Positions 22,592-39,434 of a stretch of 64,000 nucleotides of DNA are shown here, piece by piece. The number at the start of each line of letters is the position of its first letter. Position 1 is the first letter of the stretch. Source of the DNA: Nocardioides sp. URHA0020 (GTDB taxonomy: Bacteria > Actinomycetota > Actinomycetes > Propionibacteriales > Nocardioidaceae); NCBI RefSeq assembly GCF_000620705.1, contig NZ_KK211171.1:265143-329142 (forward strand). The letters run 5' to 3'. The position numbers were made by a program, and so were the translations under genes. The notes under the pieces were generated by a model, which searched no databases, was not told the origin of the DNA, and saw only the letters and a list, made by a program, of their open reading frames with translations.

Positions 22592-22897
22592 GTCACCGAG
22601 GGGTCCTCATCGGGAGCCACGTTCCTCGCGATAGCCCAGGACCGTCCAGGGCCGGATGCGCCACCTCCAGGAGCTGGCCGGTGTGCAGAGCCGCATCCAG
22701 CTCGGGTTGCATTGCGCCCGCCACGGCTGGGCCTGAGCTTCCGCCGCTGGATGCGCCGAGGCCCTGCGGAGTCTTGCCGACCGACGACGCGGCATGACTG
22801 GCACTGACTCGACGACTCGTGCCGATTGCGGGGTGAGACCCCAACGTCGCCGAGCACGGATCGCGGGAGATCCGGTCATGGGCGCTGGCGACGCCAC
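22592..22897. other. Convergent intergenic region
   Basis: A 306-base stretch between the ends of the propeller protein and the PAP2 gene. Several short open frames cross it on both strands but none has a ribosome site or recognisable protein pattern. No clear terminator hairpin. Confidence 0.5.
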
Positions 22898-23788
22898 CTA
22901 TCCCCGGAGGGCTGTCAGGTTGCGGGTGAGGAGGAAGTAGTCCCCGATGACGTCCCCGAGCAGTGCACCAGCGGCGATGTCGCCGGGGAAGTGGCCGGCC
23001 ATGTAGATGCGGGAGTAGTCGATCTGGGCTTCCATTGCGCGATACTCGGCCTCCCGCGCGGGCATCAGAGTGCCGAGCAAGGTCTCGGATGCAGCGGCAG
23101 CGGTGGCGTGTCGAGACGGGTAGGAGCACGGGCACTTCTGGCCTGCCGCGACCTTGTGGTCGGTGCGCAGTGAGGGCATGCGAACGTAGGGTGCGGCGGA
23201 GCCGTAGCGGGTGCCGAGGTCGTCAGCGATCTTCTTTGCCATCTTGAGCACGGCCTTCTCCTGGGCCTTGCGGTCTCTACCTGGGCTTCCACCCAGCAGT
23301 TCCGCCTGATCGTGGGCGTACAGCTTCCAGATGTCCTTCTTGCCGTAGGACTCGAGCCAGGTGGCCGCGGCTATGCCGGACGTCGTGCGTTGCTTGCTGA
23401 GCTTGACCACGACGGGCATCTGTCCGGCGAGATCGGCCGGAGGCGGGGGGAAGGTCTGCTCGACCCAGGCGATGAATGCCTGGTCGTCGGCCTTGGCGCC
23501 GTGGGTGGTGGCCCAGGTCCGGACCATGGCGTCGGCCTGTCTCCTCTGGGCTGCGACGCTGCTGTCGGTGGCGGCGACGGCGCTGTCTGCGAAGAGGGTC
23601 GGGGGTGGGTTGGCGGCGATCCTGTCCTTGGCCGAGAGGTTGTTGCTGCTCGTGGACTTCTTCGTGCTGCTGGTCCATGCCGTTGGTCCGACGAGTCCGA
23701 TGAGGATGGCCAGCGCGGCGAGTGCGGCGACGACGACGAAGCGTCGGCTCGGGCGACGTCTGACGGGTGGCTTGGTCGGGTTGCTCAT
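22898..23788 (-). CDS. Exported PAP2-family phosphatase
   Basis: A 296-residue protein with an N-terminal signal anchor (residues 17-38) and an extracytoplasmic PAP2/acid-phosphatase domain. The second and third PAP2 motifs are clear: SYPSRHATAAAASE (PSRH) and SRIYMAGHFPGDIAAG (SRxxxxxHxxxD). The first motif (KxxxxxxRP) is degenerate, near KKIADDLGTRYGS. Predicted hydrolysis of a phosphomonoester or pyrophosphate outside the membrane. Its ATG overlaps the VTC gene stop by four bases; last gene of a DUF4956-VTC-PAP2 operon, suggesting a phosphate or polyphosphate role. Confidence 0.85.
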   Translation of the reverse strand: MSNPTKPPVRRRPSRRFVVVAALAALAILIGLVGPTAWTSSTKKSTSSNNLSAKDRIAANPPPTLFADSAVAATDSSVAAQRRQADAMVRTWATTHGAKADDQAFIAWVEQTFPPPPADLAGQMPVVVKLSKQRTTSGIAAATWLESYGKKDIWKLYAHDQAELLGGSPGRDRKAQEKAVLKMAKKIADDLGTRYGSAAPYVRMPSLRTDHKVAAGQKCPCSYPSRHATAAAASETLLGTLMPAREAEYRAMEAQIDYSRIYMAGHFPGDIAAGALLGDVIGDYFLLTRNLTALRG

Positions 23789-24585
23789 GCGGACCTCCGA
23801 AGGTCGTGATGGGGCGTGGTGTCCAGGTGCAGGGTGTGCCCGACGAGGTGGCGTACGTCGTTGTCGGGGATGCGGGAGTCGAGCAGCGACACCGTCGCGG
23901 CGTACTTGCTGAACGACACCGGTCGGGCACCGAGGCCCATGAGGAGCCGGTCGGCGGCGCCGGGGGTCTGACCGCCCTTGGTCTCGACGATCGCGCAGCC
24001 GGCGTCGAGGCTCATGGTGCGTCGATGGCGTGTGCCGGTGAGCCCGAGGTCGACGGTGACCCGGGCACCAGTGTCGACGTCGGCCAGGGTGGTGCGGCGG
24101 TACCCGATGTCGGCCGATGCTTCGAGCGCCGGAGCCGGTGGCAGGCCGAGGTCGAGAAGGAGACCCTGGAAGAACGCGGCCGAGGTTTGATCCAGGTGGC
24201 CCTGCGCGCGTGTTGAGGTCGGATGGAAGTACTTTCGAGTCAGTCCACTGCCGTCACGGACCTTCAGCTCGAGTCGACACAGCCCGTCCTCGACGTACAG
24301 GCGACTGCGGGCCTTCCACCGACGACGGCGCTGCTGGATATGGGCTCGGCACGTCATCAGATCCGGGGTGTCGAAGTAGGTGCTGCGATAGGCGGTCGAC
24401 AGGCGCCCACCGATGGCCAGGACCCGCAATGACGGGGGAAGTGAGGTGACGAGCTCCTCCGCGATCGCACGGGGCACCACGTACTTCCGGTCGACCCGGG
24501 TGGTGGCCGGCGCGCACGCAAGAACCTCCTCCAGGGAGATGGTGCGGCGACCAGCGACAGAGGTCAGCTCGGCTGCATCAGGCAC
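23785..24585 (-). CDS. VTC-domain protein (polyphosphate polymerase-like)
   Basis: A 266-residue VTC/CYTH-tunnel domain protein. Diagnostic strands include TRVDRKYVVP, YRSTYFDTPD, KARSRLYVED, CRLELKVRDGSGLTRK and the late GYRRTTLA and CAIVETKGG strands, which supply the basic and acidic lining of the triphosphate tunnel. In yeast the VTC4 catalytic domain makes polyphosphate from ATP; bacterial homologues are mostly untested. GTG 24585 overlaps the upstream DUF4956 gene by eight bases and its stop overlaps the PAP2 start, so the three are translationally coupled. Confidence 0.85.
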   Translation of the reverse strand: MPDAAELTSVAGRRTISLEEVLACAPATTRVDRKYVVPRAIAEELVTSLPPSLRVLAIGGRLSTAYRSTYFDTPDLMTCRAHIQQRRRRWKARSRLYVEDGLCRLELKVRDGSGLTRKYFHPTSTRAQGHLDQTSAAFFQGLLLDLGLPPAPALEASADIGYRRTTLADVDTGARVTVDLGLTGTRHRRTMSLDAGCAIVETKGGQTPGAADRLLMGLGARPVSFSKYAATVSLLDSRIPDNDVRHLVGHTLHLDTTPHHDLRRSA

Positions 24586-25183
24586 GGGAATCGATCTCCT
24601 CGGGACCGGTGGAGGGCATCAGGGTCGCCCACCCCTCTTCGACCTCATGGCGAACGGCGACCACGGTCGTGTCGCGAACGAAGTCGACCTGCTCGACGAC
24701 CACCGCGATGGGTGCACGCCCAAGCCGGGCGGTGACCTCGCTGCGAACAGCGTCGGCATCGACCAGCGCACGGTCCAGCGTCATCCGCAGCACCCGGGTC
24801 GGACGCCTGGTCTTCGAGTCGTCGACCAACCACACCGCGGCAAGGACCAGCACGTTGAGCACAACGACGAGTCCCAGGTGGCGGTCGGGAAGGCCGTTGA
24901 CCAACGCAAGCACCAGAGCACAGAACGTGTACGAGACATCCTTGACGCTGAAAGCAGCGCTGCGAAGCCGGACGAGGCTCAGCAGACCGAACAGACCGAA
25001 CCCCACCCCAGCAGGGAAGTGACCTGCGGTGATGGCGGTGAGCGCCGCGAGCAGGCCGATGTTCAACGTCACGAACACCATCGTCATCTCAGGTGCAGCG
25101 GCACGCCGCCGGTAGAGCCAGCCGACGAGCACGAACAGTGCGAGGACGTCGATACCCAGTCCAATGAGCGCTGTGGATGTCAC
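24578..25183 (-). CDS. DUF4956 membrane protein
   Basis: A 201-residue protein with four predicted membrane helices in the first 115 residues (LIGLGIDVLALFVLVGWLY; VFVTLNIGLLAALTAI; a GFGLFGLLSLVRLRS segment; LGLVVVLNVLVLAAVWLV) and a soluble C-terminal alpha/beta tail with a PIAVVVEQVDFVRDTTVVAV strand. The FGLFGLLSLVRLRSAAFSVKDVSY region is typical of DUF4956. The family is regularly found beside VTC-domain genes, as here; probably a membrane partner. First gene of the operon, GTG 25183. Confidence 0.82.
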   Translation of the reverse strand: MTSTALIGLGIDVLALFVLVGWLYRRRAAAPEMTMVFVTLNIGLLAALTAITAGHFPAGVGFGLFGLLSLVRLRSAAFSVKDVSYTFCALVLALVNGLPDRHLGLVVVLNVLVLAAVWLVDDSKTRRPTRVLRMTLDRALVDADAVRSEVTARLGRAPIAVVVEQVDFVRDTTVVAVRHEVEEGWATLMPSTGPEEIDSRA

Positions 25184-25349
25184 GTGCGTTGCTCCTGCCG
25201 AATTGAGGCGGCCTGTGGGCCGGTCCTCACGACGCTAGGCATCGAGCATGAAGAAGAGATGAATCCTTGCGTCCAGCCGGTCGAGGTCCGTGGGCCGCAT
25301 GTCGCCAGGCGGAGTTGGTTCGTTTGCACCCGTGCAGCAGGCTTCAGCC

Positions 25350-25928
25350 ATGTCGGAGAAGCAGACGCGTCGGCGTGGGCCGGTGCTCGAGCAGGCCATC
25401 CTCGACGCGGCTTGGAGCGAAGTGGCAGAACGGGGTTGGTCCGACTTCACCATTGCCGGCATCGCGGAACGCAGCGGGACTGCGAAGGCGGTCATCTACC
25501 GTCGCTGGCGCAACCGGGTCGACGTGGCGGAGGAGATGCTTCGGCGAGCCAGGAGTGCGGCTGCTCCGGAGTTCGTCTCGTCCGGCGCTCTGCGCGCCGA
25601 CCTGGTGGACTTCTTGGAGGGCATGGCGGCCTTTCTCGCTGGTCCGTTCGGCGAGGTGGCGCGTGGAGTGATCTGCGAGACCGACGGCCCGAGCCAGACC
25701 AGCCTGTTCGCTGTGGACCCCGTCATCGCCCAGGTCGCCGAGGTCGTGTCCCGGGCTGTCGGGCGCGGCGAACTGTGCCGTCCGCCTTCGGCCCTGGCCA
25801 TGAATGTCGGTCACGCCGTGCTGATGGCGGAGTTCCTTCAGTCGGGGAACCTTCCGGGCTCCGAGGACATCGCCGCGCTGGTCGACGACGTGTGGCTCCC
25901 GGCGCTGGGTGCCACGCGCGCCGACTGA
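25350..25928 (+). CDS. TetR-family transcriptional regulator
   Basis: A 192-residue regulator. The N-terminal helix-turn-helix reads EQAILDAAWSEVAERGWSDF...GIAERSGTAKAVIYRRWRNR (residues about 14-58). The C-terminal domain resembles the TetR_C family with FLEGMAAFLAGPFGE and ends at an acidic tail. It is divergent from the DUF4956-VTC-PAP2 operon with 166 bases between, so it may control that operon, itself, or both. ATG 25350 fits the usual short N-terminus; an upstream in-frame start at 25290 is less likely. Confidence 0.85.
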   Translation: MSEKQTRRRGPVLEQAILDAAWSEVAERGWSDFTIAGIAERSGTAKAVIYRRWRNRVDVAEEMLRRARSAAAPEFVSSGALRADLVDFLEGMAAFLAGPFGEVARGVICETDGPSQTSLFAVDPVIAQVAEVVSRAVGRGELCRPPSALAMNVGHAVLMAEFLQSGNLPGSEDIAALVDDVWLPALGATRAD

Positions 25929-25949
25929 GCGCGGTGTCTCGCACCAGAG

Positions 25950-25982
25950 AGGGGCGCTGGGCTGCACGGTCTCAGCGCCCCT
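25950..25982. terminator. Hairpin terminator between convergent genes
   Basis: Ten-base arms AGGGGCGCTG and CAGCGCCCCT around a 13-base loop, placed between the convergent tetR and GH106-like genes. Confidence 0.65.
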
Positions 25983-26006
25983 ACCTGGTGCTTCGGTGTG
26001 TCCCGG

Positions 26007-29000
26007 TCAGCGTCGCTTGCGGACGACCTTGATGGTGACCACCTCCGACTTGGACGCCTTCAGCAGGGTCGAGCCGTTGAACGTGGCTCCGATGCGGTGC
26101 TTGCCGACCTTCAGCTTCGGCAGCTTCACGACCGCTCGACCGTTGGTCACCTTGACCGTCCGGAAGGGCTTCCGGTCGACGGTGACGCGGACCGTGCCGA
26201 CGACCTTGGCTCTGGAGGACACAGTCACGACCGCGGTGGCTCGCTTTCCTGCCTTCATCGTGGTCGGCGAGACCTTGAGCTTCGTCGTGGTCGCCACCTT
26301 CACCGGGACCGGGGTCGGGTCGGCTGCGGTCTTCAGCACCGTGTCGCGGTACGGCGTGAGCACGATCGGACCCATGAGCCCGGTGTTCTGCCAGGCCGGC
26401 ATCTGGTAGTTCCCGTCACCGGACTTGCGGACCGCGTTGAACATCGTGGTCGCGACGCGCACCTCGATGGTGTTCTCGCCGGGCTCGAGGTTCGTGCCGA
26501 GGTCGATGCGGCCACGGTCGGCCTGGTTGACCGCCACTTCGGTGCCGTTGACGGTCACCGTGGCGGAGTCGAGGACGTCCCCGAGCGCCAGGTACGCACC
26601 GTCAGTGCTGGTCCAGGTCGACGGGAGGGTCACCGTGGTGGTGTACGTCCCGACGCCGGAGGCCTGCGAGAGGTCCACCGGTGCGGTGATGTCGCGCCAC
26701 GACGGCAGCTTGCCGTTCTCCCCTGCGGTGATGTCGATCGCAGGCTGGTCGGTCTTGGTCGTCGTGTACTGGTTCGCGCCCGGTGTCCAGGTCTGGGCGT
26801 TCAGCGTCCACGAGCTCAGGTTCTGACTTGCGGCCAGACCGCTGACTGCGGTGTTGCGCTGAACTCCGTTGCTGAACGTCGTGGCGTACGAGCCGTCGGC
26901 GGTGGCACGCAGCGCGAGCCCCTGCCCGCCGGTTGCCACGATCTCGCCGGTGCTTGCCACGGCGTGCACCGCGAGCGCAGGTGCAGGAGCGGTCGTGCTG
27001 CTCGCCAGGGCGAGGACGACGGCGTCGTGCGCCCCGACCTTCACATGCACCGTGACGCCGGAGTTGTCGCTGGTGTACTCGGCGATCGGCTCGATCTTGC
27101 CCGTCCAGGTGTCCAGTTGGAACGGGACACCGGTACCGGCGAGCGTGAGGTCCTGTTCGACGGGCGTGTTGGACCGGTTGTAGACGAAGTCGTAGCTGAC
27201 CCCGTCGGCTTCACGGCGTACCAGGCCCAGTGCCGAGGTCGGCTCGGCCGGCTCTACGGCCGGTCGGACGTTGGCGGCCTCGAGGGCTGCGGGCAGGTCG
27301 GCCTCGGCGGCCACCTGCGTCACGCTCGGCTGGTCCAGGAGGTCCTCGACGACACCGGCCAGGTCACCGGAGCCGGGCTTGGCGCCGGGGCTGGTGGACG
27401 GTGCGTCGCCGATGACGAAGAGCTTCAGGCCGTCTTCGGCGAGCTCGAGGAGCCGCTGGGCGTCGGGTACCGACATGGTCGTCTGGTTGTTCAGCACCAG
27501 CGCCTGCTGGTCGGAGGTGTCACCGAACAGGCCGCCGTCTGCCTCGACCGACACGTCGGAGAGGAAGTCGGGTGCGACGTAGTCGTAGGTGTACCCGGCC
27601 TGAGAGGTGGCGGAGTCGTTGCCGAGCATGTGTTGCACCGGACCCTGGCTGCCGACACCGTTGCCGAGCAGGCCGTACTCGGCGTAGTACACGCCGAGGT
27701 CGACGGTCGCACGGCCCTGTCGAAGTACCAGTTGGGTGCGGGCGAGTGCGTCGTTGACGTTCTTGTAGTCGGGCCAGCTTGCCTGCCTTGGACCGAACTC
27801 GTCGTTGACGCTGATGACGCCGAAGATGTCCCACGGGTGGTAACCGGGCCATGAGCCACCGTCACGGCCTGCGGAGCCGACCCCGGCGGGCGCGTCACGG
27901 TACGCGTAGCCGTGCCAGACGAGCTGGTTCACGCCCCCGGCGTAGGACTTGTAGATGCTGTCCAGCAGGCCCTGGGAGTACTTGCCGCCGACGGCGGTGC
28001 CGTCGCCGCCCTGCCCGAACTGGCCGGGGACGCTCGGGCCGGCGAGGCTGGAGCGGTAGCCGCCCTGGAAGATCGCGCAGCACTCCACGGACACGACGTT
28101 GCGGCCGGCGACGTGGGCTCCTCCGGCGACGACGCGGTAGTCCTGCTCGGCGCCGAGGGTGTTGTTGCCGGCACCGAAGTTGAGCGACTCGCCCTCGGGG
28201 ATGCCGGTCCTGGTCGCTGCGACTCCGGACTGGATGGGGGTTCCGTACGCCTGGGCCCGGAAGTTGAGGTTGTGGCTGGCTGCCCACCGCTGCATCGTGG
28301 TGACGTACCGGCCCGCGTAGAGGTCGCTGAGGGTCTCGCGGTAGTCCTCGCGGAACTTCGCTCCGACACCGGCCAGTTCGAACGCCGGGGTCCCGGTGCC
28401 CTGGAGACCGGAGCCGGCGAGGGCCGGTAGCAAGGTCGTCGGGTCGTAGCCGCGCAGGTTCGCGAAGTCCTGCAGGAGGTTCCACGTCCACTTCTGCGTG
28501 GATCCGAGTTCGAGGGAGTCCTCGAACACCGAACCCCCGCCGACCTTGTCGAGGTTCTTCTGCACTGCGTCAGTGAGGATGTTCTCGTCCCAGAAGCTGC
28601 CCTGGATGCGCGCACCACCGCGGCTCCAGTGGTCGACCACGTAGTTGGGCTGCGTGGCTGTGTAGCCGCCGCTCTGCGCGACGAGGCCGGAGGCGGTCTG
28701 GAGGAAGTCGATGACGACCCACGGGTTGCCGTTGCCGACCGGGAACGTGAAGTCGAGCTTCCCGCCGGTGACGTGACCGGTGACATCGGCGACCGAGTCC
28801 GGAACCAGACCGACCGAGCCGGTCGTGCTGGTGCCGCAAGCGGCGGCGCACTGTGCCACGAGCGTCTTGATGCGGGTGGTCTTCGCTACGTTGAGGACGG
28901 CGTCGTTGACGTCGTGGGGATTCTTGACCGCCGAGACGGACAGTTCGCCACACGCAGCGGTGCGGTCCCCGAGGCCGGTCACGACGACCTTCTCCGCGAC

Positions 29001-29705
29001 CCCGCCCGTGCCGACCGTGACGGTGTCGCCAGCGGCTAGGCCTCCGAGCTTCTCGACATTGAGGACGTCGTCACCTGGGGCGGCAGCGGCGCACAGTTTC
29101 GTCGTGACCGACGGCACCGCCGTGGTCGGCGACGGCAGCACGCCCGTGCGCGACGTTCCGGCGTCGTTGAACTCCCGGCCGTAGACGAGCTGCTGCTCGG
29201 CCTCCGGCTGGTTGAAGCTGTTCAGGCTCGGCACCGTGGCCGGGTACTGCGGACCGAGGTTCTGATCGACCACCAACCCGAGCTTGGCCGCCTCAGCAGT
29301 GATGACCTCGATCTTGTGCGCCCACAGCGGCGTACCCCACCCGTACTGGGCAGTGAACGCGTTGGACTGGTTGCCCGATCCCGGGACGATGAACGGGGAG
29401 ACCTCTACCCCGCCAGCACCCGAGGCCGCGATGTCGTGGAGCTCGTCACGCAGGACGTCGTCATCGGTGTACGCCAACGGCATCCACCACCGGTACATCG
29501 GACGGACACTCTTCGGCGGGCTTGCGAACGCTTCAGCAGTCAGGCTCGTCGGTGCGTGTGCCGGGGCGGCCGACGCAGGGCTGCTGCCCGCGACGGTGGT
29601 CAGCGCAAGCGCCGGCACTACGGAGGCGGCGACAGCGAGGGCAGCCGCGGCCGCGACTGCTGCGCGTCGTCGACCTCGCAGACGAACAGGTAGAGCTCGG
29701 GTCAT
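26007..29705 (-). CDS. Secreted GH106-type alpha-L-rhamnosidase-like hydrolase
   Basis: A 1232-residue exported enzyme. Residues 1-47 are a signal peptide (RRRAAVAAAAALAVAASVV...ASA). The start of the mature protein (PPKSVRPMYRWWMPLA, GAGGVEVSPFIVPG) and the EDSLELGSTQKWTWNLLQDF...RGYDP region are characteristic of GH106-type hydrolases that remove alpha-L-rhamnose from pectin and glycans. C-terminal beta-sandwich domains follow (LDLSQAS..VGTYTTTVTLP), and the final 85 residues are a basic Ig-like cell-surface module. A LacI-type operator lies 19 bases before its ATG. Part of a plant-polymer locus with the ROK regulator and GH3 enzyme. Confidence 0.83.
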   Translation of the reverse strand: MTRALPVRLRGRRRAAVAAAAALAVAASVVPALALTTVAGSSPASAAPAHAPTSLTAEAFASPPKSVRPMYRWWMPLAYTDDDVLRDELHDIAASGAGGVEVSPFIVPGSGNQSNAFTAQYGWGTPLWAHKIEVITAEAAKLGLVVDQNLGPQYPATVPSLNSFNQPEAEQQLVYGREFNDAGTSRTGVLPSPTTAVPSVTTKLCAAAAPGDDVLNVEKLGGLAAGDTVTVGTGGVAEKVVVTGLGDRTAACGELSVSAVKNPHDVNDAVLNVAKTTRIKTLVAQCAAACGTSTTGSVGLVPDSVADVTGHVTGGKLDFTFPVGNGNPWVVIDFLQTASGLVAQSGGYTATQPNYVVDHWSRGGARIQGSFWDENILTDAVQKNLDKVGGGSVFEDSLELGSTQKWTWNLLQDFANLRGYDPTTLLPALAGSGLQGTGTPAFELAGVGAKFREDYRETLSDLYAGRYVTTMQRWAASHNLNFRAQAYGTPIQSGVAATRTGIPEGESLNFGAGNNTLGAEQDYRVVAGGAHVAGRNVVSVECCAIFQGGYRSSLAGPSVPGQFGQGGDGTAVGGKYSQGLLDSIYKSYAGGVNQLVWHGYAYRDAPAGVGSAGRDGGSWPGYHPWDIFGVISVNDEFGPRQASWPDYKNVNDALARTQLVLRQGRATVDLGVYYAEYGLLGNGVGSQGPVQHMLGNDSATSQAGYTYDYVAPDFLSDVSVEADGGLFGDTSDQQALVLNNQTTMSVPDAQRLLELAEDGLKLFVIGDAPSTSPGAKPGSGDLAGVVEDLLDQPSVTQVAAEADLPAALEAANVRPAVEPAEPTSALGLVRREADGVSYDFVYNRSNTPVEQDLTLAGTGVPFQLDTWTGKIEPIAEYTSDNSGVTVHVKVGAHDAVVLALASSTTAPAPALAVHAVASTGEIVATGGQGLALRATADGSYATTFSNGVQRNTAVSGLAASQNLSSWTLNAQTWTPGANQYTTTKTDQPAIDITAGENGKLPSWRDITAPVDLSQASGVGTYTTTVTLPSTWTSTDGAYLALGDVLDSATVTVNGTEVAVNQADRGRIDLGTNLEPGENTIEVRVATTMFNAVRKSGDGNYQMPAWQNTGLMGPIVLTPYRDTVLKTAADPTPVPVKVATTTKLKVSPTTMKAGKRATAVVTVSSRAKVVGTVRVTVDRKPFRTVKVTNGRAVVKLPKLKVGKHRIGATFNGSTLLKASKSEVVTIKVVRKRR

Positions 29706-29891: not shown

Positions 29892-31076
29892 TCAGCCGAC
29901 CTGCGCGCCGTCGGCGAGACGCATGCCGGACTTCGAGGCTGCCAGCAGGGCGGCTCCGAGAGCCTCGGCTCGCGCGCCGAGCTCGGCGCGGACGATCCGG
30001 ATGTCGTGGTTGGCGACGGGCGGCAGGGCGAGCGCGAGGGCCTGGCGCGCGGCCTCGAGCAGCGTCTCGCTCGAGTGCGGGCGCGCGGTCAGGTCCCCGC
30101 CGATCACGACCAAGCTCGGGTCGGCGATCGTGCAAACGCCGGCCAACGCGTTGCCGAGGACCTGGCCGGCGTCGGCGAGCAGACGCAGGGCCCCGCGGTC
30201 ACCGGCGTCCGCGAGGTCGAGCAGGTCGCCGACCCTGGCCTCGGGTCCGACCGTGTGCGCCAGAGCACTGAGCAGGGCACGTTTGCTGACGACCGTCTCG
30301 AGGCATCCTCGAGCCCCGCACCGACAGATCTTGCCGTCGGCGACCACGGGAAGGTGGCCGAGCTCCCCGGCGGTGCCTGACGCCCCCACGTGCACCCGGC
30401 CTCCGAGCACGAGGCCGCAACCAACGCCCTCACCCAGCATCACGTAGACGAGGTCGTCGACTGCCGTGCCGGCGCCGAGGCGCCACTCAGCGAGCGCTCC
30501 CAGGGTCGCGTCGTTGCCCAGGTAGACCGGCAGTCCGGTCCGCTCGCCCAGGATGCCGGCGATGTCGACACCGCCCCAGTCCAGCAGCATCGGCGGAGAC
30601 GCGAGCGCGCGTGAGCCGACCACCGGCGCCGAGACGGCGACGCCGACAGCGAGCACCCCGTCTCGGGGGACCTCGCTCGCCTCCAGCAGGTCAGCGGTGC
30701 TGCGAGCGAGGTGATCGAGCGAGGCCGCCGGCTCGTGGTCGACGTCGAGGAAGTGGCGCTGCTGCATGAGGACCGTGCCGTCCAGCGACGTGAGCACCAC
30801 CCTGAGGTCGGCGTGGCCCAGGTGGATCCCGATCAGGGACCCGGCTCGGGGCGCAAGCCCGAGGGCCATGGCCGGCCGCCCGCCCGCCGCTGCCGGCTTG
30901 ATGCCGAGCTCGACCAGCACCCCCGCGTCGATCAGGCTGGCGACCAGGATGGAGACGGCGGAGGTGGACAGGCCGGTCAACCGGGCCACGTCGGCTCTGC
31001 TGCAACGCGGGCGCGCCTGGACAGCAGCGACCACTGCGCGGCCATTGCGGCTGCGCAGCGACTCCAGACCGACCAT
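29892..31076 (-). CDS. ROK-family transcriptional regulator
   Basis: A 394-residue ROK repressor. Residues 1-60 hold a winged helix (SRADVARLTGLSTSAVSILVASLIDAG); the rest is a sugar-kinase-like ROK domain with [52 protein letters not shown] and the zinc motif CRCGARGCLE. Such regulators sense sugars or sugar phosphates and repress nearby catabolic genes. It is divergent from the GH3 gene; an inverted repeat in the gap is a likely operator. ATG 31076 chosen; GTG 31082 two codons earlier is equally possible. Confidence 0.88.
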   Translation of the reverse strand: MVGLESLRSRNGRAVVAAVQARPRCSRADVARLTGLSTSAVSILVASLIDAGVLVELGIKPAAAGGRPAMALGLAPRAGSLIGIHLGHADLRVVLTSLDGTVLMQQRHFLDVDHEPAASLDHLARSTADLLEASEVPRDGVLAVGVAVSAPVVGSRALASPPMLLDWGGVDIAGILGERTGLPVYLGNDATLGALAEWRLGAGTAVDDLVYVMLGEGVGCGLVLGGRVHVGASGTAGELGHLPVVADGKICRCGARGCLETVVSKRALLSALAHTVGPEARVGDLLDLADAGDRGALRLLADAGQVLGNALAGVCTIADPSLVVIGGDLTARPHSSETLLEAARQALALALPPVANHDIRIVRAELGARAEALGAALLAASKSGMRLADGAQVG

Positions 31077-31117
31077 GCTCACGGCAGCAGCCTAGGCGAC
31101 TTAGTTCATCCATATGT

Positions 31118-31267: not shown

Positions 31268-34200
31268 ATGGTCAGCAGCAATCGCCGACGCCTCGGCACC
31301 CTCCTCGGCCTCTCCCTCTCAGCGAACGCTCTCGGCGCCGCCGGCGTCGCGGCTGGTACGGCGTCCGCCTCACCACCCACGGCCCCATTGGCGTCCGCGG
31401 CGGCCGCCGCGGGTCGTCCGGTCTACCTCGACCGCTCGTACACCCCGGCGGAGCGCGCCGCCGACCTGGTGTCGCGGATGTCGCTGGCGGAGAAGGCCCA
31501 GCAGATGAACAGCAGCCAAGCCCCGGCCCTGCCGCGTCTCGGGATCGCCGCTTGGGGCTGGTGGAACGAGTCCAACCACGGGGTCAACGCGTCGACCATC
31601 ACGCCGACCGGCAACGCCACGACGCTGACCAACACCACGTCGTACCCGTCGGACCTGTCGATGGGCAGCACCTGGGACCCGGAGCTCGTCTACCGCGAGG
31701 CCTCCCTGATCGGTGACGAGGCCCGCGACACGGCGCCCGACAACCGGCTCAACCTCGACTTCTACGCCCCGACGGTCAACCTCGCCCGCGACCCGCGGTG
31801 GGGGCGCAACGACGAGGCCTGGAGCGAGGACCCGACGCTGACCGCGCAGCTGGCGGGGCAGTACGTCAACGGCCTCCAGGGTCAGACCACCGACGGCACC
31901 CTGCCGGCCTCCGCCCACGGCTACTACAAGGCGATCGCCACGCTGAAGCACTACGCGGCGAACAACAGCGAGGTCAACCGGCGCAACGGCTCGTCCGACA
32001 TGGATCAGCGCACGCTGCGCGAGTATTACACCAAGCAGTTCGCCGACATCGTGAAGTCGGCCCACCCCGGCTCGATCATGAGCTCCTACAACGAGGTCAA
32101 CGGGGTGCCGGCTGCAGCGAGCGTGCAGCTGATGAGCGACCTGGCGCGCGACACCTACGGGTTCGACGGCTACTTCACCTCGGACTGCGACGCGGTCTAC
32201 GAGATCCAGGCCGGGCACCACTGGCAGCCGCCGGGTGCCAGCGCGCCCCTCGACCAGTACTCCCGCTCGGCGTGGGCCATCGCCGCAGGCGAAGACCTCG
32301 ACTGCAACTGGGGCTACCACGACCAGTACAGCTACGGGAACACCGTTCCCACGGCGATCGCGCAGCAGATCAAGACCGAGACCGACACCTTCAACGTCGG
32401 CGACGTCGACACCTCGCTGACCCGCCTGTTCACCGCTCGGATCGAGACCGGCGAGTTCGACAAGGAGAACACGGTCCCGTGGGTCCGCGCGGCCCGCAAG
32501 CGCCTCGGTGGCGCCACCTGGACCACCTCGCCGGACAACAACGCGGTCACCGAGACGCCCGAGCGGCTCTCGCAGGCGCGGCAGAGCGCCGAGCAGGCCC
32601 TCGTGCTGCTGAAGAACGACAAGGTCGGCGGGACCTCTCTGCTGCCGTTGAGCGTCCCGAAGAACAAGGCCTTCAAGGTTGCCGTGGTCGGCTACTTCGC
32701 GCACCCGGCGCAGCTCTTCACCGGCGGCTACTCCAGCCGCCAGGTCAACGCCGGTGCCGCCAACAACATCGACGCCTACACCGGCATCAAGGACGCCGTC
32801 GAGGCTCGGAACCCGAACGCCCAGGTCGACTTCCTGCCCGGCGTCACCGGCGGGACCAGCGCATCGCAGCTCACCACCGTCGACCCCGACACCCTTGCCA
32901 AGGTCGGCGGGTACGACGCGGTCGTGGTCGTCGCCGGCACCGACGGGAGCACCGCCTCGGAGGACCACGACCGTACGACGACCGCTCTGCCCGGCGCCCA
33001 GGCCTCGATGATCAGCCAGGTCGAGGCCGCCAACCCGCGCACGGTCGTCTATCTCCAGACCGTCGGCTCGGTCGACGTGCGCAGCTTCGAGCAGACCAGC
33101 CCCGCCCTCCTGTGGAGCTCCTACCTCGGGCAGCGCCAGGGCCCGGCGATCGCCGACGTCCTGCTCGGCAAGGTCAACCCCAGCGGGCACCTGCCCTTCA
33201 CCTGGTACACCGACGACAGCCAGCTGCCGGCGATCACCGACTACGCGATCCGGCCCAGCCAGTCGGCTCCCGGTCGCACGTACATGTACTACACGGGCTC
33301 CCCGAGCTTCGCCTTCGGTCACGGCCTCAGCTACAGCAGCTTCCGGTTCTCGGACCTGAAGGTGACCGGCCGGTCCGTCGACGCCTCGGGCACCGTGACC
33401 GCCACCGCCAAGGTCACCAACACCGGCGACGTCGCCGGCGCGGCGACCCCGCAGCTGTACGTGACGACCCCCTTCGCCTCAGCCGCGGCTGAACGACCGG
33501 CCAAGCGGCTGCTCGCCTTCGACCGCGTCGTGGTGAAGCCCGGCAAGACCGTGAAGGTCAGCTTCTCCGCGCCTGCCTCCCAGCTGGCTTTCCTCGACGA
33601 AGACAGCGAGACCATGCACGTCGACCGGGGGACCTACGGCCTTCAGCTGGCAGCCTCGGTCTCCGATGTGCGCCAGCGCGCGTCGGTGCAGGTGACGGGT
33701 CGACTGGGTCGCACGCCCACGACCGTGTCGGTGCGGCCCGTGCAGTCCGGTGACGCTGCCGCGGACGTTGCCCAGCGGGTCGCGTTCGACGCCGGCGCCC
33801 GGATCGACCCACAGGTCACCGTCGCGACCGACGACGAGGCGCTGCACGGCTACATCAGCAAGGGTCGCAGCACGCCGCTCCCGGCGGGCACCAAGATCCG
33901 CTACCACTCCAACCGGCGCGACGTGGTCGCCGTCGAGCAGGGCGGCACGGTGCTTCGCGCCGTCGGACCGGGCGTGGCGACGGTGACGGTCGACGCGAAG
34001 CTGCACGGCACCACGGTGAGCACGACCTTCGTGGTGAACGTGGCTCCGCTGCAGATCACCTCCGAGCCGACGGCGGCGTTCACGGCCGGCACGGCAGGGA
34101 GCTTCACCGTGTCCACGGCCACCACGCAGTCGCCGACGGCCCAGGAGGTGCCGAGCCTCTCGGTGAAGGGCAAGCTGCCGGCGGGGCTGGCGTTCGTCGA

Positions 34201-34327
34201 CAACGGCGACGGCACCGGGACCATCTCCGGGACCCCGACCACCGCGGGGACCGTCGTGGTGCGGGTACGCGCAGCCAACGAGGTCAGTCCCCCGGTCGCC
34301 CAGGACCTCACGGTCACGGTGGGCTGA
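31268..34327 (+). CDS. Secreted GH3 glycosidase with Big/He_PIG tail
   Basis: A 1019-residue exported GH3 enzyme of the beta-xylosidase/arabinosidase-like branch. Signal peptide about residues 1-35. The (beta/alpha)8 domain includes WWNESNHGV, PTVNLARDPRWGRN, KHYAANN and the nucleophile motif GYFTSDCDAV (Asp about residue 306). The alpha/beta sandwich domain (VAVVGYFAHPAQLFTGGYS; GHLPFTWY) and the Fn3-like domain (FRFSDLKVTG... MHVDRGTYGLQL) follow. The last 250 residues add an Ig-like Big module and an He_PIG-type repeat (LPAGLAFVDNGDGTGTISG). Acts on oligosaccharides, probably with the rhamnosidase-like enzyme. Confidence 0.9.
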   Translation: MVSSNRRRLGTLLGLSLSANALGAAGVAAGTASASPPTAPLASAAAAAGRPVYLDRSYTPAERAADLVSRMSLAEKAQQMNSSQAPALPRLGIAAWGWWNESNHGVNASTITPTGNATTLTNTTSYPSDLSMGSTWDPELVYREASLIGDEARDTAPDNRLNLDFYAPTVNLARDPRWGRNDEAWSEDPTLTAQLAGQYVNGLQGQTTDGTLPASAHGYYKAIATLKHYAANNSEVNRRNGSSDMDQRTLREYYTKQFADIVKSAHPGSIMSSYNEVNGVPAAASVQLMSDLARDTYGFDGYFTSDCDAVYEIQAGHHWQPPGASAPLDQYSRSAWAIAAGEDLDCNWGYHDQYSYGNTVPTAIAQQIKTETDTFNVGDVDTSLTRLFTARIETGEFDKENTVPWVRAARKRLGGATWTTSPDNNAVTETPERLSQARQSAEQALVLLKNDKVGGTSLLPLSVPKNKAFKVAVVGYFAHPAQLFTGGYSSRQVNAGAANNIDAYTGIKDAVEARNPNAQVDFLPGVTGGTSASQLTTVDPDTLAKVGGYDAVVVVAGTDGSTASEDHDRTTTALPGAQASMISQVEAANPRTVVYLQTVGSVDVRSFEQTSPALLWSSYLGQRQGPAIADVLLGKVNPSGHLPFTWYTDDSQLPAITDYAIRPSQSAPGRTYMYYTGSPSFAFGHGLSYSSFRFSDLKVTGRSVDASGTVTATAKVTNTGDVAGAATPQLYVTTPFASAAAERPAKRLLAFDRVVVKPGKTVKVSFSAPASQLAFLDEDSETMHVDRGTYGLQLAASVSDVRQRASVQVTGRLGRTPTTVSVRPVQSGDAAADVAQRVAFDAGARIDPQVTVATDDEALHGYISKGRSTPLPAGTKIRYHSNRRDVVAVEQGGTVLRAVGPGVATVTVDAKLHGTTVSTTFVVNVAPLQITSEPTAAFTAGTAGSFTVSTATTQSPTAQEVPSLSVKGKLPAGLAFVDNGDGTGTISGTPTTAGTVVVRVRAANEVSPPVAQDLTVTVG

Positions 34328-34372: not shown

Positions 34373-34567
34373 GCTCTGCGCTGCCGAGGTGGGGCTCCAG
34401 GTCGGCACTGTCTCCTCAGGTTCCGGGATCGGAGGCCGAAGTAGTGCTTGTGTGACATGAGGGTCGACGAAATCCTGCGAGGAACGATCGCAGGGAGTCC
34501 TCCCCCGACCCTCGGCGCACCAACAACGGTACGTGGAGCCTGTGAGCTCGCTAGGAGGCCCAGGCTC

Positions 34568-37375
34568 GTGTCGCTCGCTCAGCAGATCACCCGAGTGACC
34601 CGCACCGGGTTGGTGGCCGTCGGCCTGGTCGCGGCAGTGAATCTCGGACTGCTCACCTACATCGCATTCGTGCTCGATGTCCAGGCCGGGCACGCCAACA
34701 GCGCAGCACGGTCGGTACGTCTTGCTCACCTCGCGATGGTCGACCAGGAGACTGGCCTGCGTGCTTACCTGCTGACCGGAGACGACGACTTCCTCGAGCC
34801 CTACGAGGCCGGAGTCCTGAAGCTGGGCGCAAGTCTGAAGGCCACCGCGAACGAAGTGGGTGCCAACGAGCGGATCGAGGTCCTGCTCGAAGCCCAACAG
34901 GCCGCCGTCAAGACCTGGACGGACCAGTGGGCCCTCCCCGCCCGTCGCACCGGCCAGCACTTCGTTGTCAGTCGCAACGCGGCGGAGCGGGACGAGTTCC
35001 TGCAGCAGGGCAAGACGCTGTTCGACGCCTACCGGGCAGCACACGAGGATCTTGAGCAGGCGGTGGACGAGCTGCGCGCGGATCGCGACCGCCGGCAGTG
35101 GAACGTGCTCGTCAGCGCCTTGGGGGTCGAGCTCGCACTCCTTGCGACGGGAATGCTGGTGATGCGCCGCCAGAGGCGCCGTCTGCGGGACGCGGTGGTA
35201 GACCCGGTCAAGGAGCTCCTGGGAACGATCCGACGCATCCGCGACGGCGACCTCGCTGCGCGATCGACGGTGACCGAGCCGTTGGAGCTCTCCGAGGTCG
35301 GCGCCGGCTTGGACGAGATGGCTGGTGCGCTGGAGACCGAGGAACGCCACACGAAGGAGCGCGAGACAGCGTTGCTCAACGCCCGCCGGGACGCGGAAGC
35401 CGCGAACAAGGCGAAGTCGGCGTTCCTGGCCACGATGTCCCACGAGATCCGCACGCCCATGAACGCCGTCATCGGGATGACCGGCTTGCTGCTGGACACC
35501 TCCATGGACCAGGAGCAACGGGAGTACGCCGAGACCGTTCGCGCGTCCGGGGAGGCACTGCTCAGTCTCATCAACGACGTGCTCGACTACTCCAAGATCG
35601 AGGCGGGAGAGCTCGCCCTCGAGCGCCACCCGTTCAGCCTGCGCGACTGTGTCGAGGGCGCCGTGGATCTTCTGGCCGCCCAAGCCGCGACGAAGGGGCT
35701 CGATCTGATTGCGCAGATCGACCCGGACGTGCCTGCGGTGGTCGAAGGCGACGTGACCCGTGTGCGTCAGATCCTCGTCAACCTGCTCAGCAACGCGGTC
35801 AAGTTCACCAGCCACGGCGAGGTCCATGTGCACCTCCGGGTCCTGTCCGAGGAAAGTGAGCCGACCGGACGACCACTGACCACGCTGGCGTTCTCCGTCC
35901 GCGACACCGGGATCGGGATCCCCTCCGAGCGACGCGATCGGCTCTTCCGGTCCTTCAGCCAGGTCGATGACAGCACCACCCGGATCTACGGGGGCACGGG
36001 GCTCGGGCTGGCCATCTGCAAGCACCTCAGCACTGCCATGGGCGGGCGCGTGGAGGTCGAGAGCGAACCCGGCCGCGGCTCCACCTTCACCGTCGTCGTC
36101 CCGCTGGCGCCCTGTCAGGCACCGGACGAGGCGCAGGTGGTCCCCGCCGAGCTCTCCGGCCGTTCCGCCCTGGTCGTGGACGACAACGACACCAACCGAC
36201 GGATCCTGCGGGGCCAGCTCGAGGCCTGGGGGATGCACGTCGTTGACTACGCCGACCCGATCGAGGCGCTGGCCGCCGTACGGGCGGGCGAGCACGAGTT
36301 CGATGTCGTCGTCCTCGACATGCACATGCCGGGCCTCGACGGCCTCGGGCTGACCCGGGGTCTACGCGCCGTCCATGGGCTCGCCGAGACCCCGATGGTG
36401 CTCCTGACCTCGCTGGGTGAGCGCCCCGAACAGGCCCAGGCGCTCGGACTGGTCCACCTCACGAAACCGGTGAAGGCCGCTGCGCTCCAGCAGACCGTCG
36501 CCCGGGCGCTGGGCGCGAGGACGGGAGGCGACCAACCTGTCAGCTCCCGGACGCCGATCGGTCCGCTGCGCATCCTCCTGGCCGAGGACAACGTGGTGAA
36601 CCAGCAGGTGGCCACGCTGATGCTGCGCAAGCTGGGGCAGCGTGCTGACGTCGTGGCGAACGGTCAGGAGGCGCTCAACACCATCCGCGTCACGCCGTAC
36701 GACGTGCTGCTCATGGACGTGCAGATGCCGGTCATGGACGGGCACGAGGCGACGCGACGCATCCGTGCCGAGCTGCCACCCGAGCGTCAACCACGCATCA
36801 TCGCCATGACCGCGAGCGCGCTCGTGGAGGATGTCGAGGCGAGTCTGGCCGCGGGCATGGACGGCCACCTGGCCAAGCCCGTGCGCCACGAAGACCTCGA
36901 GTCGGTGCTCCGGCGCGTCCGACCGATGCGTCCCCTGCACCCGTCCGAACCACAGGTCCGGGTCGATCGCAGCGAGCGAGTCTTGACCGAGGTCACTCCG
37001 CCGGTCTTCGACGCGAACGTGCTCGACACCTTGGTCGGATACCTCGGCCCCGACGGCGAGACCCTTCGCACGAAGCTGCTGTCGGCCTGGCGTCTTGAGA
37101 GTGCCTTTTTGGTCGACGGGCTGTCTGAGACCGTCGGCGCCGACGACATCGCCCAGGCTCAGGAGATCGCGCACTCCTTGAAGTCCGCCAGCGCAGCCGT
37201 AGGGGCCATGGCGCTCTCGCAGGCGTGCGCCGAGCTCGAGCTCGCTCCCGTCGACGAGGTCTCCGACGAGCAGCTGGCCCAGCACGTCAGCGCCATCAGC
37301 ACAGCCCTGTCGAGCCTGAACCAGGCACTCGCTGCATCAACGGTGGGCGAGCAGTCGTTGTCACTCGCGCGGTAG
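34568..37375 (+). CDS. Hybrid sensor histidine kinase/response regulator
   Basis: A 935-residue membrane phosphorelay protein. Two membrane helices (about residues 15-37 and 183-203) flank a CHASE3-like sensor with the [18 protein letters not shown] signature. HAMP-like linker, then HisKA with His292 ([12 protein letters not shown]), HATPase_c ([26 protein letters not shown]), two receivers with phosphoacceptors Asp584 ([10 protein letters not shown]) and Asp717 (VLLMDVQMP), and a C-terminal HPt domain with His869 (EIAHSLKSA). GTG 34568 is chosen because AGGAGG lies nine bases upstream. No separate output regulator is adjacent. Signal unknown. Confidence 0.92.
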
Positions 37376-38352: not shown

Positions 38353-38628
38353 TCAGTTGCGCATCAGGCGCGCTCGCAGAATTGCCAGGGAGAGTGGCTC
38401 ACCGTTCAGCAGCTTGCCGTGTACCTCCAGATCCTGATCGGGTTTGAGCAGCTTGGCGACCGAAGGGTACGAACGCGGAAAGCAGACGCACGGGAGGGAT
38501 CCGGCGCTCCCTTCTAGTACAAACTCGACCCAGGGCAGACCAGCCGAGTTGATGCTCTTCGAGAGATTGGCAATCCGGCCGCGGGCGCATGTGTCGGGTT
38601 CGATCGGCGCACTGTTCGCATCGGGCAC
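38353..38628 (-). CDS. Stand-alone OB-fold-like protein
   Basis: A 91-residue protein. Residues about 14-88 read as an OB fold of the tRNA_anti type: ARGRIANLSKSINSAG (strand 1-turn-strand 2), WVEFVLEG, LPCVCFPRSY, LLKPDQDLEVHGKLLNGEPLSLAILRA. The pattern matches the OB domain near the C-terminus of DNA polymerase III alpha (GxV...G...FxLED..G...VVFPR.Y), but here it stands alone. Predicted single-strand nucleic-acid binding. GTG 38628 is the probable start. Lies among genes of less GC-rich composition. Confidence 0.55.
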   Translation of the reverse strand: MPDANSAPIEPDTCARGRIANLSKSINSAGLPWVEFVLEGSAGSLPCVCFPRSYPSVAKLLKPDQDLEVHGKLLNGEPLSLAILRARLMRN

Positions 38629-38795
38629 CCTTCAGTTCTAGCCAACTCCACCGACAAGAACCGAGAAAGGCAGTCCCTGTCCGCCGACTGGGGCCTCCGT
38701 CAGCCTGTTCCCGGGGCAGATCAAGACGGCTGCAGCGCTGCAGTTTTTTGGTCCCCACTCACTCGAGCCAGGTGCTGATCCTCGGTGGGTCGGGC

Positions 38796-39434
38796 ATGGT
38801 GTCCGCTATGTCCTTCAAGCTACCGCCGTCATTAGCAACGGACAGTGACGCTAGCGCGATTCGAGCGCTCCAGAAGTACTACTTCACGCCCAAGGAGGGG
38901 CCAGGCTTCTTCACGGGTTCCTTGTTCGATTCCTGGGACCCATCAGGCTGGCGAGCGCGAGACCGCAACCGCTTCACCGCAGACGACGTCGTAGCTGTCA
39001 CTCTGCTATCGGTCTCGCTGCCAGGCGAAGCGGCGCACGACCTCCTCGTCGCGCGCACGGACGAGTTCCAGGAGTTGCTCATTGACCTAGGCGACGATCG
39101 AGACTTGGTTGACATCGACGACCTGCCCGAGGGATGGACGGGCTGGGATCTCATGCTGGCGTTACGTTCGCTGCCTGGCGTTGGTCCGACGACCGCCAGC
39201 AAGCTCCTCGCGCGGAAGCGGCCGCGCTTGAGGCCGATTTGGGACTCGGTTGTTGCGCAAGCCACCGGAACAACAGAGCAACTTTGGATCCCACTCTGGG
39301 AAGCATTGCGACGGGAAGACCGCGAACTGCACGCGAGGCTCCTGCGACTCCGCGACGAAGCCGGCCTCTCGGACAACGTGAGCGCCCTGCGAGTCTTCGA
39401 CGTCATCGCGTGGATGGACGGCAAGGGGTACTAG
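38796..39434 (+). CDS. DUF6308-like helix-hairpin-helix protein
   Basis: A 212-residue soluble protein of the DUF6308 type. The N-half has YYFTPKEGPGFFTGSLFDSW and RFTADDVVAVTLLSVSLPG; a helix-hairpin-helix-like LRSLPGVGPTTASKLLARKRPRL (about residues 127-150) is followed by PIWDSVVAQATG, typical of the family. The hairpin suggests DNA contact, but no activity is known. ATG 38796 or ATG 38808 may be the start; no strong ribosome site. Base composition is more A/T-rich than the core genes, suggesting transfer. Confidence 0.65.
   Translation: MVSAMSFKLPPSLATDSDASAIRALQKYYFTPKEGPGFFTGSLFDSWDPSGWRARDRNRFTADDVVAVTLLSVSLPGEAAHDLLVARTDEFQELLIDLGDDRDLVDIDDLPEGWTGWDLMLALRSLPGVGPTTASKLLARKRPRLRPIWDSVVAQATGTTEQLWIPLWEALRREDRELHARLLRLRDEAGLSDNVSALRVFDVIAWMDGKGY

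Follow-up and report, generated by a model that had tools for sequence, protein, structure and literature searches.

A conserved DUF4956-VTC-PAP2 operon in Nocardioidaceae and Streptomyces and its possible role in surface polyphosphate metabolism

The window analysed in this work is a stretch of 64 kilobases (kb) from Nocardioides sp. URHA0020 (contig NZ_KK211171.1), and statements below on motifs and neighbours in the window refer to its full length. It hosts three genes in one run on the minus strand, encoding in order a DUF4956 membrane protein, a VTC-type triphosphate-tunnel domain and a protein that resembles PAP2 and class A acid phosphatases. We show that Nocardioidaceae and Streptomyces share DUF4956-VTC-PAP2 as a conserved class of operon. 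Our tentative reading, to which we give a little less than an even chance, is that the operon is a dedicated surface polyphosphate module, in which a synthesis-export pair feeds an exported partner that can be exchanged and is in this case a PhoN-like PAP2.

The genes were named from Pfam. The first (24578..25183, 201 amino acids, GTG start) matches PF16316 (E 3.5e-42; 144.5 bits against a curated cut-off of 30.6), the second (23785..24585, 266 amino acids, GTG start) matches PF09359 (E 5.3e-18; 65.9 bits against 23) and the third (22898..23788, 296 amino acids) matches PF01569 (E 4e-7; 30.3 bits against 27.2). Searches of NCBIfam found nothing for DUF4956 or VTC, and nothing close to the cut-off for PAP2. 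The overlaps of 8 base pairs (bp) between DUF4956 and VTC (24578-24585) and of 4 bp between VTC and PAP2 (23785-23788) are what translational coupling would lead one to expect. An earlier note on this DNA had described these overlapping genes together with a divergent TetR regulator, and all four are in place and confirmed by Pfam.

Conservation of the operon was examined at two scales. The family scan covered 149 genomes, that of the window included, and the PAP2 and VTC proteins were searched separately. Full-length PAP2 orthologs (at least 240 bits, 49-100% identity) occur in 10 genomes and are set well apart, as every other PAP2 match scores 46.6 bits or less; a VTC match was found in 32 genomes. 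Both genes are present in nine genomes and adjacent in nine out of nine, and the nine top-scoring VTC matches are those of the same nine genomes, with the window itself highest. This adjacency, together with the co-occurrence of PAP2 and VTC across the 149 related genomes (Fisher p = 3e-6, which serves as a guide only), argues that the pairing is not due to chance. The wider scan used the PAP2 alignment only and one genome per species. It returned 40 loci, all from Nocardioidaceae (Nocardioides, Marmoricola, Aeromicrobium) or Streptomyces, and in 36 of these DUF4956, VTC and PAP2 lie in the same order on one strand. The four exceptions are a locus of the draft genome G119 (L073), which is described below, L100, which has no DUF4956 match, and the PAP2 fragments L108 and L109. 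In one Nocardioides locus among the 36 (L104:4395-6882), VTC is frameshifted and PAP2 is split. The overlap between VTC and PAP2 is 4 bp in 32 of 37 loci, where start codons were chosen automatically. A search of 72,556 plasmid records with PAP2 gave no match at 1e-5. The coupling to PAP2 had been called less usual in the earlier note; it is indeed distinct from the partners of other DUF4956-VTC pairs, but the conservation across these loci shows that it is no local oddity. As a side observation, both PAP2 fragments come from Streptomyces and, together with L104, may reflect sequence error or gene loss.

The residues of the VTC domain suggest that it likely makes polyphosphate. The window VTC alone matched no solved structure at E <= 1; a broad alignment of 32 bacterial VTC sequences matches the solved Vtc4 structure with an E-value of 1.3e-23. 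By alignment, ten residues of Vtc4 can be mapped to the window protein: K200 to K34, R264 to R93, R266 to R95, K281 to K108, K294 to K118, R361 to R164, R373 to R175, E426 to E201, K428 to K203 and K458 to K227. All ten are invariant in 39/39 PAP2-linked VTCs, an alignment from which L100 and L104 were omitted, and in the diverse set of 32 bacterial sequences nine do not vary and K34 is kept in at least 90%. The positions other than R264, R266 and E426, seven in number, we take to be Vtc4 tunnel residues as well. Passages of a study of the yeast VTC complex (PMC9911596) describe the R264A/R266A/E426N complex as catalytically impaired, and polyphosphate synthesis as coupled to passage through the membrane. 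Loss of catalytic residues had been named in the earlier note as a refutation of its polyphosphate proposal; the comparison of tunnel Arg, Lys and Glu residues with VTC4 found ten kept and no such loss. No SPX domain, which in the eukaryotic complex serves control by inositol pyrophosphates, was found, VTC being the sole domain in the 266-residue protein at E <= 1. In a tree of 71 VTCs all 39 PAP2-linked sequences fall on one side of a branch with support 100/100; the partner labels of seven rows were assigned by eye and confirmed later. When the alignment of PAP2-type VTCs was compared with solved structures, only a cytochrome subunit was returned (E 1.1), which we rejected.

The AlphaFold 2 model of the DUF4956 protein, of modest confidence, predicts five membrane helices of 15-24 residues followed by a small alpha-beta domain (strand-helix-strand-strand). 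R72, R74 and F87 are found in 54/54 DUF4956 sequences (32 PAP2-type and 22 other), a set that remains from 70 aligned rows after the removal of 16 that were picked by a motif containing R72 and R74 themselves. The PAP2-type sequences in this alignment are 32 of 41, nine from Streptomyces having been omitted. A second fold comparison gave rows with Z 4.0-6.5 that we read as noise, including those to small alpha-beta domains with Z 5.0-5.3 over residues 127-184. A resemblance to MgtC, seen by eye, is no more than a lead: hhalign gave a probability of 1.3% and an E-value of 0.039 against an MgtC profile of two sequences only, and the genome of the window has no MgtC match.

The PAP2 protein is predicted to have the class A acid-phosphatase fold. 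Its AlphaFold 2 model has a predicted local distance difference test score (pLDDT) of 89.8, and the top VIA-align rows are the Bacillus subtilis PGP phosphatase (5jki, Z 16.4), LpxE (15.8) and a mutant of the E. blattae acid phosphatase (15.2). Rows of the PAP2 superfamily reach down to Z 8.3, with the following row at 4.5, and acid phosphatases align at Z 12.9-15.2 over 181-189 residues with root-mean-square deviations of 3.4-4.2. There is also a Foldseek match to 7f17 (E 9.0e-5) and a profile match to PhoN (E 1.5e-6). The protein has one hydrophobic N-terminal segment after a basic stretch, hence the catalytic domain should lie outside the membrane. The export of PAP2 claimed in the earlier note is thus borne out as a prediction, with one N-terminal transmembrane helix. 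Among the PAP2 homologs the segment is above the threshold in 40/41, and the remaining one scores 1.59 against 1.6.

PAP2 proteins are characterized by three motifs, K-x6-RP, PSxH and SRx5Hx3D. In an alignment of 41 sequences, with L104, L108 and L109 omitted, the second and third of these are present, and H227, R260, H266 and D270 are found in 41/41. The Gly of PSGH is replaced by Arg in 37/41 (R226 in the window, giving PSRH), by Lys in 1/41 and by Ser in 3/41. Other conserved basic residues are R208 (41/41) and K185 (40/41). According to passages of PMC6146910, PhoN and similar acid phosphatases can phosphorylate alcohols with pyrophosphate or polyphosphate as the donor, the tests there having been made with pyrophosphate. 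By such donor use PAP2 could act as a phosphotransferase and not only in trimming.

What do other DUF4956-VTC pairs have as a third gene? The family scan contains 26 non-PAP2 VTC copies, of which 22 were examined (21 loci and the second copy of the window genome), leaving out G102, two split copies of G144 and the second copy of G029. Each of the 22 has a DUF4956 match beside it. The gene after the pair is Cthe_2159 in 10 cases, CotH in seven, LTD in one and unclear in four, so that PAP2 adds a fourth class to these third genes. A lipobox-like motif is found in 16/18 Cthe_2159, CotH and LTD partners, and the two without it (L053 and L057) have a hydrophobic N-terminus as judged by eye. The genome of the window itself carries two DUF4956-VTC pairs, the second of which (L030:5470-8437) precedes a Cthe_2159 gene whose beginning is lipobox-like. 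In a sample of the phylum a VTC match was found in 32/296 genomes. The reverse order, VTC then DUF4956, was seen by eye in 16 of the 28 loci viewed there, and partners typed by Pfam are LTD in L135 and Cthe_2159 in L140. Genes for DUF4956, a polyphosphate polymerase and CotH are contiguous with Pel clusters in some Gram-positives, as passages of PMC7112168 describe.

The regulatory genes beside the operon differ between the window and most related loci. The divergent TetR-family gene (25290..25928, plus strand) matches PF00440 and PF16859 (TetR_N E 1.1e-10, TetR_C_11 E 1.6e-12), and from the position where the domain starts it probably begins at ATG 25350 rather than GTG 25290. It lies outside the conserved unit: a comparison with 49 related stretches, which represent 43 distinct loci, found no homolog of it at 1e-5. 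The TetR of the earlier note is therefore present at this locus but was not found near related loci, where the shared neighbours are a two-component system and a direct repeat. A response-regulator match was found in 33/40 loci, divergent in 31 of those 33, and a histidine-kinase match in 34/40, which in L071 is a kinase fragment only. Three neighbouring regulators typed by Pfam are OmpR-type. The window has no response-regulator match at 1e-5, and its sole kinase match (35285-36046) lies in another gene. Of the PAP2 proteins found, that of L071 is most closely related to the window PAP2, and the kinase fragment of this locus suggests that the two-component pair was lost in this lineage. The best match in the window genome to the response regulator of L032 is 47% identical, and the local regulators of the relatives are 48-65% identical to the same query. 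Two minor observations on the TetR side are a 9-nucleotide palindrome at 25361-25374, within the TetR gene, and an open reading frame (L032:1624-2280) that appears TetR-like by eye, does not adjoin the operon and has no match to the window TetR.

The direct repeat is TTCAT-N6-TTCAT in the window (25248..25263, minus strand). It lies 80 bp upstream of DUF4956, has no other match in the 64 kb and is a candidate site for a response regulator. The pattern TTCAY-N6-TTCAY occurs 39-168 bp upstream of DUF4956 in 31/41 regions (21/25 from Streptomyces, which are close relatives and hence non-independent, and 10/16 from Nocardioidaceae), where letter shuffles lead us to expect 0.01/41. When 40 loci were scanned on both strands, 29 of the 31 occurrences were in DUF4956 upstream regions. 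Eight bp past the repeat lies CCTAGCGT (25232..25239, minus strand), a candidate -10 region; CCTA is found 8-9 bp after the repeat in 26 of the 31 repeat-bearing regions. Sigma-70 and terminator scans of 22600-26000 gave no match. Passages of PMC6283541 describe PhoP boxes as repeats with an 11-nucleotide period and the core GTTCACC. The window units, ATTCATC and CTTCATG, share the 11-nucleotide period and the TTCA core with these Streptomyces PHO boxes, although the heptamer is not exact. This likeness is a suggestion that the operon may be under phosphate control.

The mechanism that we propose has four parts. The cytosolic VTC domain, which keeps the tunnel residues, would make polyphosphate from nucleoside triphosphate in a Vtc4-like tunnel. 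The chain might then cross the membrane via DUF4956, in the role that the Vtc1-type membrane part plays in the yeast complex. PAP2, with its predicted one-helix anchor and outside domain, could hydrolyse the exported chain or transfer its phosphate to an acceptor. An OmpR-type response regulator may drive expression via the direct repeat. This surface module is favoured by the conserved gene order, the 4-bp overlaps, the single VTC clade, the tunnel residues, the predicted fold and topology of PAP2, the donor use of PhoN-like enzymes, the promoter repeat and the likely exported partners in 18/22 other pairs.

The proposed module can be set beside known systems. With the yeast VTC complex it shares the ten tunnel residues, one for one, and the combination of a tunnel domain and a membrane protein; here, however, SPX was not found, the membrane partner is DUF4956, an exported PAP2 is added and the genes are separate. 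The Gram-positive sets of DUF4956, polyphosphate polymerase and CotH also have DUF4956 and VTC, and in most of the actinobacterial family loci examined here a third gene follows whose product is likely exported, whereas the operon described here has PAP2 in third place, a separate VTC clade and, mostly, its own two-component system and promoter repeat. PhoN, PhoC and the E. blattae acid phosphatase have the same predicted fold, the PSxH and SRx5Hx3D motifs and a predicted location outside the membrane. They differ in the first motif, where Arg is replaced by Ala here, in PSGH, which is PSRH here, and in that the window protein has a membrane anchor and sits in a VTC operon.

Several results weigh against a surface module. 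The DUF4956 model has no match to folds in the PDB at E <= 0.001, and with a mean pLDDT of 67.9 it is a weak basis for the channel that DUF4956 is supposed to form. A canonical polyphosphate kinase is also encoded in the window genome, so that VTC would be dispensable for bulk polyphosphate. No clear exported partner follows the pair in four of the 22 other cases (L050, L051, L054 and L068). In the draft genome G119, PAP2 comes straight after DUF4956 and overlaps it slightly (L033:3095-4514, the same locus as L073), and the genome scan found no VTC match, which suggests either a VTC-independent link between DUF4956 and PAP2 or, the genome being a draft, an operon in decay. Lastly, the Arg of the first PAP2 motif, located by profile alignment to PhoN, corresponds to Ala199 in 41/41 sequences; the Lys position of this motif is uncertain, with R or K at 194 in 35/41. 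We read this, together with PSRH, as a phosphate-binding Arg that may have moved from motif 1 to motif 2. With the first motif altered, the label of a trimming phosphatase is not secure. On the whole, the interpretation in the earlier note is partly supported.

Other explanations can be given. The best of them, which we consider somewhat unlikely, keeps the production and export of polyphosphate by VTC-DUF4956 and lets PAP2 act on envelope phosphate esters, lipid-linked phosphates, phosphorylated glycans or scavenged organic phosphate, the genes being joined through a common phosphate or envelope signal. PAP2 enzymes have broad substrates, and the structures that rank highest are lipid phosphatases (5jki and LpxE), with the acid phosphatases close behind. 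If the substrates were separate, however, it would be harder to see why members of this PAP2 subfamily found in the scan occur almost only in the VTC operon, in 36/40 loci with two of the other four being fragments, and the 4-bp overlap with VTC in 32/37 suggests a common substrate or complex. The VTC-free arrangement of G119 is easier to explain in this way, as is a promoter repeat with the period of PhoP boxes (PMC6283541).

An unlikely alternative is that the bacterial VTC makes or handles another phosphate polymer or a nucleotide product, and that the three proteins together remodel an anionic polymer of the envelope. The chemistry of triphosphate-tunnel enzymes is diverse, and no characterised bacterial VTC of this kind was found in the open-access literature searched. 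The ten Vtc4 tunnel positions kept here argue for the same chemistry, whereas the partners elsewhere, a carbohydrate-binding family and CotH, and the contiguity of the CotH set with Pel clusters (PMC7112168) are in favour of another product. It is more improbable still that PAP2 is catalytically dead or a binding subunit, for although its phosphate pocket lacks the Arg of the first motif throughout, both catalytic histidines and the Arg and Asp of the third motif are invariant, and R208, K185 and R226 could rebuild the pocket.

A broader form of the surface module is a long shot. DUF4956-VTC may be a general bacterial polyphosphate export unit that provides phosphate and energy to enzymes outside the cell, where there is no ATP, with interchangeable partners that include a CotH kinase and a PhoN-like PAP2 phosphotransferase with its Arg moved from motif 1 to motif 2. 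The donor use known from PhoN-like enzymes leads to this view of exported polyphosphate as an outside phosphate donor for the CotH and PAP2 partners. If true, kinase-like chemistry would take place outside the bacterial cell, run on exported polyphosphate.

The CotH set with DUF4956 and polyphosphate polymerase is already in print, in the passages of PMC7112168 cited above, and PAP2 as a third gene was not found in open-access searches. The portions of this literature that the searches covered contain no functional study of bacterial DUF4956/VTC genes and nothing on a PAP2 pairing; in them DUF4956 is, besides the Pel work (PMC7112168), merely listed in expression tables or text, and the VTC treated in passages of PMC10657179 and PMC7332688 is eukaryotic. 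VTC-type genes are not rare in the phylum, as the sample of 296 genomes shows, yet their bacterial role is without an account in the literature searched. Since Streptomyces is easy to handle in the laboratory, its conserved operon, which has a regulator of its own and encodes an enzyme predicted to lie outside, offers a direct route to ask whether bacteria make polyphosphate by a tunnel enzyme and export it. It also offers a way to ask why the third gene varies between PAP2, CotH, Cthe_2159 and LTD.

Other genes of the window deserve a brief description. At 26007-29705 lies the gene for a large protein (GH106) that resembles alpha-L-rhamnosidases and ends in an Ig-like domain. Genes for a ROK regulator (29892-31082) and for an enzyme of family GH3 (31268-34327) are near it, possibly a sugar-degradation cluster that adjoins the operon. 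The hybrid histidine kinase encoded at 34448-37375 combines CHASE3, HAMP and Hpt domains with two receiver stretches. Further along, a DUF6308 protein is encoded at 38589-39434, where the GC content is locally lower (0.635-0.645 over 38-42 kb), perhaps as the result of a recent insertion.

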